From NCBI GenBank assembly GCA_002711995.1, contig PASN01000001.1:207018-271017 (forward strand): DNA of 64,000 bases, given 5' to 3'. Positions within the stretch are counted from its first letter, which is position 1, and each line of letters starts with the position of its first letter. A program made the position numbers and the translations under genes. Shown piece after piece: positions 21,997-24,667 of the stretch. This stretch comes from Halobacteriovoraceae bacterium (GTDB taxonomy: Bacteria; Bdellovibrionota; Bacteriovoracia; Bacteriovoracales; Bacteriovoracaceae). Under the pieces are notes generated by a model that had not been told where the DNA came from, searched no databases, and was given only the letters and a program-made list of their open reading frames with translations.

Positions 21997-22388
21997 TGGA
22001 TAAACCAATAGTCTTTTTTGATGGTGAATGTGCTCTTTGCGATTCCTTCGTGAGTTTTGTTTTAAAAGCTGACAAAGACCGAAATTTTTATTTTGCACCT
22101 CTTCAAGGTCACACGGCCAAAAAATATTTAACTGATAAAACACTTGGTGATGTCGATAGTGTCATTCTATTTGATGGAAATCAGACTCTAATCAAATCAG
22201 AAGCAGTCTTGGCAATAATGGCAAAACTCGGTTTCCCTTGGAGCATATTTCTAGTTTTCAAAGCAATACCTAAAGCTATAAGGGATGTCCTATATGAGCT
22301 AGTTGCAAAAAATCGGATTAAGCTTTTTGGTAAAAAAGACATGTGCAAATTGCCAAGTACCAAAGAGAGGCAACAAATCTTAGACTAA
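21996..22388 (+). CDS. DCC-family thiol-disulfide-like protein (DUF393)
   Basis: This 130-residue protein has the DCC signature at its start: VFFDGECALCDSFVSFVLKA, with a CxxC pair (Cys13, Cys16) at the place of the thioredoxin active site. YFAPLQG and SEAVLAIMAKLG follow, as in other DUF393 members. Family members are thought to act as small disulfide oxidoreductases, but the partner is unknown. Start is coupled to the methyltransferase stop. It is convergent with the PqqD-like gene, overlapping it by 4 bases. Confidence 0.85.
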   Translation: MDKPIVFFDGECALCDSFVSFVLKADKDRNFYFAPLQGHTAKKYLTDKTLGDVDSVILFDGNQTLIKSEAVLAIMAKLGFPWSIFLVFKAIPKAIRDVLYELVAKNRIKLFGKKDMCKLPSTKERQQILD

Positions 22389-22642
22389 TCAGCGCTTTCA
22401 GACAGTCTTAAGATGGATAGAGATTCGAGGTCTTTTAAAAAGCTTTTTAGCTGCTTAACTTCATCCTCTTTAAATTTTTTAGAGAGCTTTGTAAATGTTG
22501 AGTTTCCCTGAAACAGCTCGTATGAAAACTTAGCTAACGACCCACTCACCCTATACGCTTTAGCATCGGCGTTTAAGTCAGTTATTACAAGAGTCTCTTC
22601 ATCCATAAAGTACACGACATCTTTATTTAGATCAATCTTCAT
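22385..22642 (-). CDS. PqqD-like peptide-binding (RRE) protein
   Basis: This 85-residue protein looks like the PqqD fold, which binds the leader of a precursor peptide and presents it to modifying enzymes. The N-terminal half gives beta strands (VVYFMDEETLVITDL) with a helical segment, AKFSYELFQGN, then STFTKLSKKF and a final helix DEVKQLKSFLKDLESLSILRL. This matches the usual pattern of strand pair, helix, and acidic helix in PqqD and RRE domains. ATG at 22642 overlaps the stop of the oxygenase gene (ATGA). It closes a four-gene operon with the oxygenase, glycosyltransferase and a short peptide gene. Similarity is by pattern only, so a profile search should test it. Confidence 0.6.
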   Translation of the reverse strand: MKIDLNKDVVYFMDEETLVITDLNADAKAYRVSGSLAKFSYELFQGNSTFTKLSKKFKEDEVKQLKSFLKDLESLSILRLSESAD

Positions 22643-23511
22643 ATTCTTTCACCAGGTGTTGTATTCTTAATGCTAATTGACTCATTTAAATAATAGTTAA
22701 TGAACTCATCTACTGCTTGCGGTTGAGAAAATAAGGCTTTCAGCTCAACTTGCATAGCACTCATTTTATTTCCTAAGGCCTCTTTATTATAGGCATTCTC
22801 TGAAGGCATCATCTCAAATTCTTTTTGATACTTGGGTCTAAGTTTCTCCAAAAAGTATTCATACATTGAGAAGTAGTCTGGCCTATGCAATCCAAAGGTT
22901 ACATGAATAGAGGCGTCTGAGGTACACTTTGCGTAATGCGCAATATTGGCAGGTAAATAAAGAATATCACCAGCATTTAAAACAATTTTTACATCTGATT
23001 CTTTGCTCTCTTTTTCTCCATCCTCTTCATTTATATCCCCTAGGTACCACTCCTTGCTACCTTCCACTTGATAAATAAAAATATCATAACCATCTTTGTG
23101 TCTTGAAAAGCAGCATCCATTTGCAGGAGTGTAATATAGGTTGGCCGAGCAATAATGATTCGTAAGTCTTTGCAGAGATTCCCTAGTTGTCGAAACCGGC
23201 CTACTCCAACGGTTCACGCTAAAAATTTTTAATGAGCACTTATTTGAATTTACAAGCTTGAGTGCCTTCGAGCTGTCTACAATACGCTCTCTTCTATTAA
23301 ATAATGGTTTAGAGCTTAGAGAAGTAATAAGTTGTTCATTAACGAACTGTCCATTCTTAGCAAGTAAAAAATCTCTTGGCTCCAAAAATTGGTCCCTTAG
23401 AATTTTCTCAATTGAGCCTGAATTAAACTCCATATACTGGATATTTTTAAGATGATAATAAGATTTCATCCAATAATCTTCAAAAAATTTATCGTTAAGA
23501 ACTTCTTTCAC
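22639..23511 (-). CDS. JmjC/cupin-fold oxygenase
   Basis: This 290-residue protein resembles the cupin-4/JmjC group of Fe(II)- and 2-oxoglutarate-dependent hydroxylases. The metal triad can be placed as His138 and Asp140 in FSRHKDGYD and His192 in PANIAHYA, the last preceded by AGDILYLP, the strand typical of JmjC cupins. Other useful parts are ANLYYTPANGCCF before the first His and DIFIYQVEGSKEWYLGD after it. Known relatives hydroxylate amino-acid side chains in proteins or peptides, for example Arg, His, Asn or Asp. It overlaps the glycosyltransferase gene by 17 bases and the PqqD-like gene by 4, so all three are co-translated. The substrate is inferred to be the upstream short peptide. Confidence 0.72.
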   Translation of the reverse strand: MKEVLNDKFFEDYWMKSYYHLKNIQYMEFNSGSIEKILRDQFLEPRDFLLAKNGQFVNEQLITSLSSKPLFNRRERIVDSSKALKLVNSNKCSLKIFSVNRWSRPVSTTRESLQRLTNHYCSANLYYTPANGCCFSRHKDGYDIFIYQVEGSKEWYLGDINEEDGEKESKESDVKIVLNAGDILYLPANIAHYAKCTSDASIHVTFGLHRPDYFSMYEYFLEKLRPKYQKEFEMMPSENAYNKEALGNKMSAMQVELKALFSQPQAVDEFINYYLNESISIKNTTPGERI

Positions 23512-24487
23512 TTAGGCCTCTTCTTTTTTCTATGCTAATGCCAATACTCTTTAATTTTTTTGCAATATTCAAGATAAGATAACTGTTCTTGGAACCTGGG
23601 AGCATAAACTCATTTGATTCCGCCTTGCTCAAGACTGTAAATCTTAGGTTTTGAGCGTTTACGATTTTAATCTTTCCATCATTATATATAAAACTTAAAC
23701 TTCCTGTACATTTAAACTGGTCCGGTCCCAATTGAAAGGAATAGAAATCAGAGTTCTTCCAACTGACAGGATATAGAATTTCTTTTTTAAAGTTTTTACT
23801 AACTCTAATCAATCGATTGGAGAGAGAGCGAAAAAATGCATCTAAATAGTTTTTAAAGTGGTACGAGACGAGGTTTAAATCCTGAATATCTTTTTCACAA
23901 AAGATAGGAACACATTTAAACTTCGCTCCATTTAGAATGGCAACTCTCCCCCAATGACGATCTTCAAAGCGAATAAACTTTGGATCAAAGCCACCAGTAC
24001 TTTCGAAAAAAATCTTTCTAACCATAAAACAGGCACTGTCCAAGTTAGGAAGAGCAAGATCAAACCGTGATAAAGTGCAAAAGCTCCCTCTTGTTACTTG
24101 TGCATATTTTTTAAAATACAGCTTTTGAGCAATGCCTTCTCTAGAAAAAGTTGGCCTTATTCTAGGTACCACAACATCAAAGCCTGCTGGGCTTAAACAC
24201 TCCGCCTCTTCCAAAAACTCGGTTGGCACATGAACTTCTTGATCTACAAAAAGAATCGCATCACCTTTGGCAATGGAAGCTCCTAGGTTTCTTGCATAAG
24301 AGCGGTTCTTGGAAAGGTCTGACTTTATATTTTTAATTTTAGATGAAAGAGGTAAACAACTTCTCAAGTCCTTCTTAGCGTTATCCACAAGAATAACTTC
24401 CAAGACTTTAGGGTGGTTTTGCAGGCGCTTAAGATTTTCTCTTAGGCAATCTGTGACTTGCACCATAGGAACGACTATGGAGATCAT
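23495..24487 (-). CDS. Family 2 glycosyltransferase
   Basis: This 330-residue GT-A fold enzyme starts ISIVVPMVQVTDCL. The nucleotide-sugar site is visible as EVILVDN (30-36), NRSYARNLGASIAKGDAILF (61-80), and FVDQEV (80-85), which takes the DxD-like metal position. A later acidic stretch (FDPKFIRFEDRHWG) is the usual acceptor loop. It starts 6 bases after the short peptide gene and overlaps the oxygenase gene by 17 bases. In mycofactocin loci a GT2 enzyme glycosylates a matured peptide, which gives a precedent. Its acceptor here is not known and could be the short peptide. Confidence 0.85.
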   Translation of the reverse strand: MISIVVPMVQVTDCLRENLKRLQNHPKVLEVILVDNAKKDLRSCLPLSSKIKNIKSDLSKNRSYARNLGASIAKGDAILFVDQEVHVPTEFLEEAECLSPAGFDVVVPRIRPTFSREGIAQKLYFKKYAQVTRGSFCTLSRFDLALPNLDSACFMVRKIFFESTGGFDPKFIRFEDRHWGRVAILNGAKFKCVPIFCEKDIQDLNLVSYHFKNYLDAFFRSLSNRLIRVSKNFKKEILYPVSWKNSDFYSFQLGPDQFKCTGSLSFIYNDGKIKIVNAQNLRFTVLSKAESNEFMLPGSKNSYLILNIAKKLKSIGISIEKRRGLSERSS

Positions 24488-24493
24488 GAAATA

Positions 24494-24667
24494 TTAAAGG
24501 TTCACACTTGTGTCTGTACCGTCTCCATAAGGGCCGGCTCCGTCCAATAATGCTGCATAGGCATATAGATCCTGAGAATAGCCTTCACACTCTTCGGCAA
24601 CATCATCCAAATTTAAGACTTCAATTTCACCTAAGATTTTGTCACCAGCTTTATATATTTTATTCAT
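24494..24667 (-). CDS. Candidate RiPP precursor peptide
   Basis: This 57-residue gene opens the operon of glycosyltransferase, oxygenase and PqqD-like protein. The product starts MNKIYKAGDKILGEIEVLNL, an amphipathic, acidic leader-like segment that continues DDVAEECEGYSQDLYAYAA. It ends in a compact tail, LLDGAGPYGDGTDTSVNL, made of small and hydroxylated residues. That is the leader-plus-core shape of ribosomal peptide precursors. I use ATG at 24667; earlier in-frame ATG or TTG codons (24682, 24685) sit on top of a TATAAT promoter-like box and have no ribosome site. The plus-strand frame over the same DNA looks like a shadow. No peptidase or transporter is seen next to it. Confidence 0.55.
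   Translation of the reverse strand: MNKIYKAGDKILGEIEVLNLDDVAEECEGYSQDLYAYAALLDGAGPYGDGTDTSVNL

Follow-up and report, generated by a model that had tools for sequence, protein, structure and literature searches.

A predicted precursor, glycosyltransferase and JmjC oxygenase operon suggests a hydroxylated and glycosylated ribosomal peptide in a Halobacteriovoraceae bacterium

The window analysed here, a stretch of 64,000 nucleotides of contig PASN01000001.1 from a Halobacteriovoraceae bacterium (a relative of predatory bacteria; 3.7-Mb assembly, 23 contigs), carries on its minus strand four tightly packed genes, at 22385-24667, encoding a 57-aa peptide, a glycosyltransferase, a JmjC oxygenase and an 85-aa protein. 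We consider it probable that this operon is a pathway for a ribosomally synthesized and post-translationally modified peptide (RiPP), guided by a RiPP recognition element (RRE), in which the JmjC enzyme hydroxylates the tail of the peptide and the glycosyltransferase adds a sugar to it. The operon architecture, the predicted RRE fold, the recurrence of the gene set and the combination of a conserved leader with a variable tail are well supported. The genes and the segments of the peptide are as follows.

24494..24667, minus strand: precursor peptide gene, 57 aa (MNKIYKAGDKILGEIEVLNLDDVAEECEGYSQDLYAYAALLDGAGPYGDGTDTSVNL), ATG start at 24667
24554..24667, minus strand: putative leader, residues 1-38, with a motif common to the peptides of other loci; boundary placed where conservation ends
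24608-24634, minus strand: LGEIEVLNL stretch of the leader
24554-24571, minus strand: leader end motif DLYAYA
24497..24553, minus strand: candidate core, residues 39-57 (ALLDGAGPYGDGTDTSVNL), the variable region of the alignments
23495..24487, minus strand: GT2 (GT-A) glycosyltransferase gene, 330 aa; PF00535 match, 1.5e-9
22639..23511, minus strand: JmjC_2 Fe(II)/2-oxoglutarate oxygenase gene, 290 aa, GTG start; PF08007 match, 2.6e-20
22385..22642, minus strand: stand-alone PqqD-like RRE gene, 85 aa; assigned by leave-one-out profile, AlphaFold2 model and Foldseek

The first-pass annotation had read junctions of 6, 17 and 4 bases between these genes, and the open reading frame (ORF) coordinates agree: a gap of 6 bases separates the peptide and glycosyltransferase genes, the glycosyltransferase and JmjC genes overlap by 17 bases, and the JmjC gene overlaps that of the 85-aa protein by 4 bases (ATGA). 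Immediately 5' of the peptide start codon there are TTG and ATG codons in the same frame. A promoter and terminator scan found no more sites than in shuffled sequence.

A profile of the relatives' PqqD-like proteins that adjoin JmjC or glycosyltransferase genes, built without the 85-aa protein, finds that protein among 3603 ORFs at E 3.4e-5. Several of these related proteins match PF05402 themselves (loci L027, 1.9e-9; L028, 3.5e-12; L029, 2.6e-6; L115, 3.5e-10; L125, 6.8e-8). The AlphaFold2 model of the 85-aa protein, computed from the single sequence (predicted local distance difference test score, pLDDT, 83), consists of strands followed by helices, with the three strands and three helices of the PqqD and TbiB1 fold. 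When this model was compared with the PDB using Foldseek, the top matches were the TbiB1-leader complexes 5v1v and 5v1u (E 7e-5, probability 1.00, template modelling score about 0.7), followed by the lasso B1 protein 6jx3, ThcOx, the PbtF RRE and MccB. Judged by its predicted fold, the 85-aa protein is an RRE. A cas2 identity was also considered and set aside: the match (E 0.008) falls below the cut-off and the predicted fold lends it no support.

The same four functions recur at locus L057, on the same contig about 73 kb from the operon, where genes for a 51-aa peptide, a PqqD-like protein, a GT2 enzyme and a JmjC/Cupin_8 protein are found in that order, with one opposite-strand ORF between the peptide and PqqD-like genes. 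Given this recurrence, and the probability of about 3e-5 (a rough Poisson estimate) that a genome of 3.7 Mb would contain three JmjC/PqqD-like pairs by chance, the association of the window genes is not accidental. Loci combining JmjC, RRE-like and glycosyltransferase (GT2 or GT4) genes are also found in other genera of the same family: L115 (PqqD, JmjC_2, GT4 and a peptide), L120 (a peptide directly 5' of the JmjC gene, then GT4 and a PqqD-like protein), L125 (JmjC, a Pro-rich peptide, PqqD and GT4), L122 (JmjC, YcaO, GT4 and a 155-aa RRE-like protein with a precursor-like C-terminus) and L029 (PqqD, GT4 and JmjC, with no recognised peptide). Locus L026 has JmjC together with GT2. JmjC and glycosyltransferase genes thus accompany a precursor at the window, L057, L115, L120, L122 and L125.

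Across these loci the leader pattern LGE-I-x-V..L/F ... L-x-A-Y-A is common to the peptides, whereas their tails are different. The window leader motif is also present at L057, L025, L058 and L122 and, in looser form, at L115, L120, L170 and L171. Pairwise alignments of the window peptide with the L057, L120 and L115 peptides give shuffle p values of 0.001-0.008. When its alignment scores with the other precursors are summed, the total exceeds that of all 2114 decoy small ORFs, the top two of these 'decoys' being the L125 and L058 peptides, both within RRE loci. With self-matches removed, ten precursors occupy ranks 1-10 among 5108 small ORFs (the window peptide ranks 6), although this ranking is partly circular because the precursor set includes the L125 and L058 peptides found through decoy scoring. 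The L122 fusion aligns with both the window peptide (p 0.007) and the L057 peptide (0 of 5000 shuffles as good), and the L120 peptide and a second L115 peptide were recovered as held-out matches of the peptide profile. The pattern D-L/F-x-A-Y-A, itself derived from the window, L057 and L025 peptides, occurs at five places in the DNA of the host genome, three of which are the small peptides of these three JmjC/PqqD-like loci and two of which lie within large proteins.

The combination of constant leader and variable core is clearest in genome G110 and weaker for the window peptide. The four G110 precursors share KKxYxFxxL...LLLRAYARI (one leader, for example, reads KKEYNFGELEVENF...LLLKAYARIPA) and diverge beyond it into unrelated tails: VIDDGGCGSDGGGDGGPPYC, DCSDSMPADFCMAP, GDSDFSPGDPKP and one Gly/Asp-rich tail of 28 residues. 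The reading first given to this operon, that of a short precursor served by an RRE, a JmjC enzyme and a glycosyltransferase, is supported by three results that might have gone against it: the predicted RRE fold, the recurrence of the set with a peptide gene, and the constant leader with its variable tail. Because related gene sets with the same leader and very different tails are spread across the bacterial family, they look like a real, little-described family of modified-peptide pathways.

Two unrelated glycosyltransferase families, GT2 and GT4, adjoin JmjC and RRE genes, which argues that glycosylation belongs to the chemistry. In alignment with the GT2 proteins of L057, L058 and L026, the window enzyme keeps GT-A features, namely an ED motif (FEDRHW) and D-x-E (VDQE) in place of DxD. 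It is otherwise generic, matching exopolysaccharide (EPS) and arsenosugar models and scoring 41 bits with the MftF model, for which the cut-off is 280; the comparison with MftF drawn in the first-pass annotation thus holds as a general GT2 resemblance and no further.

The JmjC_2 domain carries the Fe/2-oxoglutarate metal triad H138-x-D140 ... H192, and the H/D/H residues are invariant across the RiPP-type JmjC set. Its closest PDB relatives are NO66 (5e-9), YcfD (2e-6) and MINA53 (3e-6), enzymes that hydroxylate His and Arg. The candidate core contains 3 Asp, 2 Thr and one each of Pro, Tyr, Ser and Asn, with no His, Arg, Lys or Cys. Since the closest JmjC enzymes of known function act on His, Arg or Lys, none of which is present in the window tail, and since the non-lanthipeptide tails of the family show an enrichment of Asp, Pro, Gly and Cys (with boundaries chosen after inspection), Asp or Pro is the most likely target residue as judged from sequence. 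In many relatives the JmjC genes (L030-L046 and L110-L118, L115 excepted) lack a neighbouring PqqD-like gene; these were classed as ribosomal oxygenase-like or other.

In the pathway that we propose, the 57-aa peptide would be the precursor, and its N-terminal ~38 residues would form the leader bound by the 85-aa RRE. Leader binding by strand addition is established for solved RRE-leader complexes, and in the same manner the LGEIEVLNL stretch would probably be added to the RRE as a beta strand. Both the JmjC and the GT2 enzyme would be presented with the Asp/Gly/Pro-rich tail by the RRE; the former would hydroxylate a tail side chain, and the latter would place a sugar on the new hydroxyl or on Ser, Thr or Tyr. 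It is plausible that hydroxylation precedes glycosylation. Cleavage of the leader near ...AYA, and any export, would be performed by enzymes encoded elsewhere.

Several results weigh against this reading or limit its scope. No modified peptide has been seen, and the tail modification, its target residue, the order of the steps and the product are inferred. No Pfam model (PF05402 included) and no NCBIfam PqqD model matches the 85-aa protein, and the peptide too falls in no family of these collections; for the 85-aa protein, the hidden Markov model support that the first-pass annotation named as a check came from the relatives' profile and not from the standard models; as the RRE family is defined by fold, this miss is not counted as exclusion. 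A profile made from the G110 and G155 peptides alone gives no match at E<=10 when searched against the host genome, and the leave-one-out peptide profile reaches the window peptide only at E 1.5, hence the link of the window leader to the family depends on pairwise scores, motif and context and not on a strong profile. Weak matches of the peptide profile elsewhere are mostly ORFs of 150-170 aa that match in the N-terminal 25 positions only. The JmjC/RRE-like loci L027, L028 and L029 contain no recognisable member of the window peptide family. The D-x-E motif of the glycosyltransferase is unusual. No close ortholog of the operon was found in the same-genus genomes G001 and G002 (81-82% complete), and the sole match in scans of contig collections with single-protein and two-sequence queries was a same-genus contig (from a Bacteriovoracaceae metagenome-assembled genome). 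Finally, the inspected neighbours of the operon (on the downstream side DCC1-like and methyltransferase genes in convergent orientation, on the upstream side a gene for an unrelated 309-aa protein) include no recognised radical S-adenosylmethionine (SAM) enzyme, cyclase, protease or exporter, as had been remarked earlier. A leader protease or exporter is common in RiPP operons, though not universal; many RiPPs rely on genes located elsewhere, and its lack near the window operon is thus compatible with RiPP membership.

Among other explanations, an RRE-guided RiPP pathway in which a single enzyme acts on the window peptide, either the glycosyltransferase directly on Ser, Thr or Tyr with the JmjC enzyme acting elsewhere, or the reverse, appears unlikely. 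The two enzymes do occur apart, at L058 (GT2 and LanM-like without JmjC) and at L027 and L028 (JmjC without glycosyltransferase), but they stand together at the window, L057, L026, L029, L115, L120, L122 and L125, and with two unrelated glycosyltransferase families. We regard as very improbable that the JmjC enzyme and the 85-aa protein form a split ribosomal oxygenase (ROX, a JmjC domain plus a winged helix) whose substrate would be a ribosomal protein, with a spurious or regulatory peptide ORF. The proximity of the window JmjC to NO66, YcfD and MINA53 would fit such an enzyme, as would the JmjC proteins with extra C-terminal sequence at L025 and L026. However, the 85-aa model resembles leader-bound RREs and not ROX winged helices, the host genome has, at L041 beside cytochrome-type genes, another JmjC gene whose length is ROX-like, and the peptides of the family vary in their tails and occur in scattered copies. 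As to the C-terminal winged helix of ROX enzymes, the window JmjC has 290 aa compared with 370-490 for ROX chains, and its AlphaFold2 model, built from two sequences, is poor (pLDDT 48).

Scarcely more credible is a role of these genes in the synthesis of a surface polysaccharide or glycoprotein, with the peptide as a small structural or regulatory protein. The generic character of the GT2 enzyme and the position of L115 beside other glycosyltransferase and methyltransferase genes are consistent with this, but it leaves unexplained the RRE, the common leader and the lanthipeptide-type tails that occur on such leaders at L058 and L025. Other loci bearing the leader or an RRE-like gene are listed below.

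L025:6153-12930 (G000:C19, host genome): JmjC, PqqD-like, 70-aa DUF6229-like precursor, LanC and LanB-like, then GT4 and a second PqqD-like gene
L058:6430-9688 (G000:C10, host genome), minus strand: LanM-like (DUF4135), PqqD-like, GT2 and a 57-aa precursor ending AESVACMTTFMCGPVTTSCTT, with a leader of the same kind
L122:8297-8764 (G110:C109), minus strand: 155-aa protein, RRE-like in its N-terminal part, with the precursor-like C-terminus ...LGEMSIVSLDALLGVEDELAAYATGCCGCYSSGC; apparent RRE-precursor fusion
L125:7300-7563, minus strand: 87-aa ORF with a related leader and a strongly Pro/Gly-rich tail
L170:2761-2916, minus strand: orphan G110 precursor gene with an L115-type leader
L171:5542-5745, minus strand: orphan G110 precursor gene with an L115-type leader
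L028:7940-8071, minus strand: 43-aa ORF MSKSKVTKDSKKTAKKKPYNKPKVKVVKIEKSHVYATNNCGGY near PqqD, YcaO-like and JmjC genes

On the common leader and RRE, JmjC is combined with GT2 or GT4 (window, L057, L115, L120 and L125), with class I lanthipeptide-like enzymes (L025) or with YcaO (L122, whose precursor apparently forms one protein with the RRE-like domain), and a LanM-like enzyme with GT2 (L058). It is a tentative but real possibility that one leader/RRE system docks several chemistries in the family, that a single enzyme set in G110 serves, in trans, scattered precursors whose tails are unrelated, and that the window product is a linear hydroxylated glycopeptide. L170 and L171 are located in other regions of the G110 genome; neither a JmjC nor a PqqD-like gene was detected in the stretches of 9-12 kb around L170 and L171, and these orphan precursors may be modified in trans. 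The gene content suggests that the L058 product is possibly a glycosylated lanthipeptide, hydroxyproline glycosylation is conceivable at L125, and the 43-aa ORF of L028 looks like a different type of RiPP precursor.

Some further loci were noted. In the host genome, L176:280-1683 (minus strand, G000:C4) encodes, next to a YcaO gene, a protein of 137 aa that the PqqD profile matches weakly. The JmjC loci L029:5663-10769 and L047:400-4006, from different genera, have in common an 'HKG' phosphodiesterase-like gene and two genes of similar size in the same order; a radical SAM gene is present in L029.

If correct, our reading adds an oxygenase-plus-glycosyltransferase family of RiPPs whose products are so far little described in this bacterial group, and the leader (…L-x-A-Y-A) offers a handle for finding more. 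A leader common to hydroxylase/glycosyltransferase, lanthipeptide and YcaO gene sets would allow one docking system to be tested for combined chemistries, and the four G110 precursors would supply a single enzyme set with a natural range of substrates.

The operon was compared with known RiPP systems. It was not assigned to mycofactocin (MftA-F), given the low MftF score and the lack of a radical SAM gene or MftA. In glycocins such as sublancin, a GT2-family enzyme of the SunS type glycosylates a ribosomal peptide; the window, by contrast, has no core Cys and no adjacent transporter, protease or thioredoxin genes, and has an RRE and an oxygenase, so that it was not placed among the glycocins. 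The Cys-free core and the absence of LanB, LanC and LanM from the operon likewise exclude the lanthipeptides, the Lan genes being found at L025 and L058. The window RRE is alike in predicted fold to the lasso-type stand-alone RREs TbiB1 and TfuB1, at 12-15% sequence identity, but the operon, unlike their systems, has no lasso cyclase or B2 protease. DUF6229 proteins have been reported as lanthipeptide precursors (rhodanocins, PMC9576775), and the L025 peptide combines such a tail, in a match below the cut-off, with DLxAYA as in the window peptide.

Closer parallels exist for the oxygenase. BipG is the JmjC ornithine hydroxylase of the biphenomycin RiPP pathway (PMC12707348), and BipG/BpmG (PMC12707348, PMC12257519) exemplify the JmjC Fe/2-oxoglutarate hydroxylation of a ribosomal peptide side chain that we propose for the window. 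BipG, however, acts on ornithine after arginase, whereas the window tail has no Arg, Orn or Lys; the biphenomycin pathway uses multinuclear non-haem iron-dependent oxidative (MNIO) and B12-radical SAM enzymes, with no glycosyltransferase in the given gene list, whereas the window has GT2. No description of the window gene set or its leader was found in the open-access literature, which was the scope of the search, nor was a class of linear hydroxylated glycopeptide RiPPs; JmjC enzymes in RRE-associated RiPP-like loci are already known. The earlier statement that the operon matches no RiPP class has to be softened in view of BipG and of the reported RRE-JmjC (PF08007) fusions in fish and algae, the JmjC homologs of bacteria said to lie in RiPP-like contexts, and the RRE-GT2 (PF00535) fusions (PMC12710340). 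Those systems resemble the window in bringing a PF08007 JmjC domain together with an RRE fold; the JmjC-RRE proteins discussed there are fusions, whereas the window has a separate 85-aa RRE in an operon with GT2 and a member of a precursor family.

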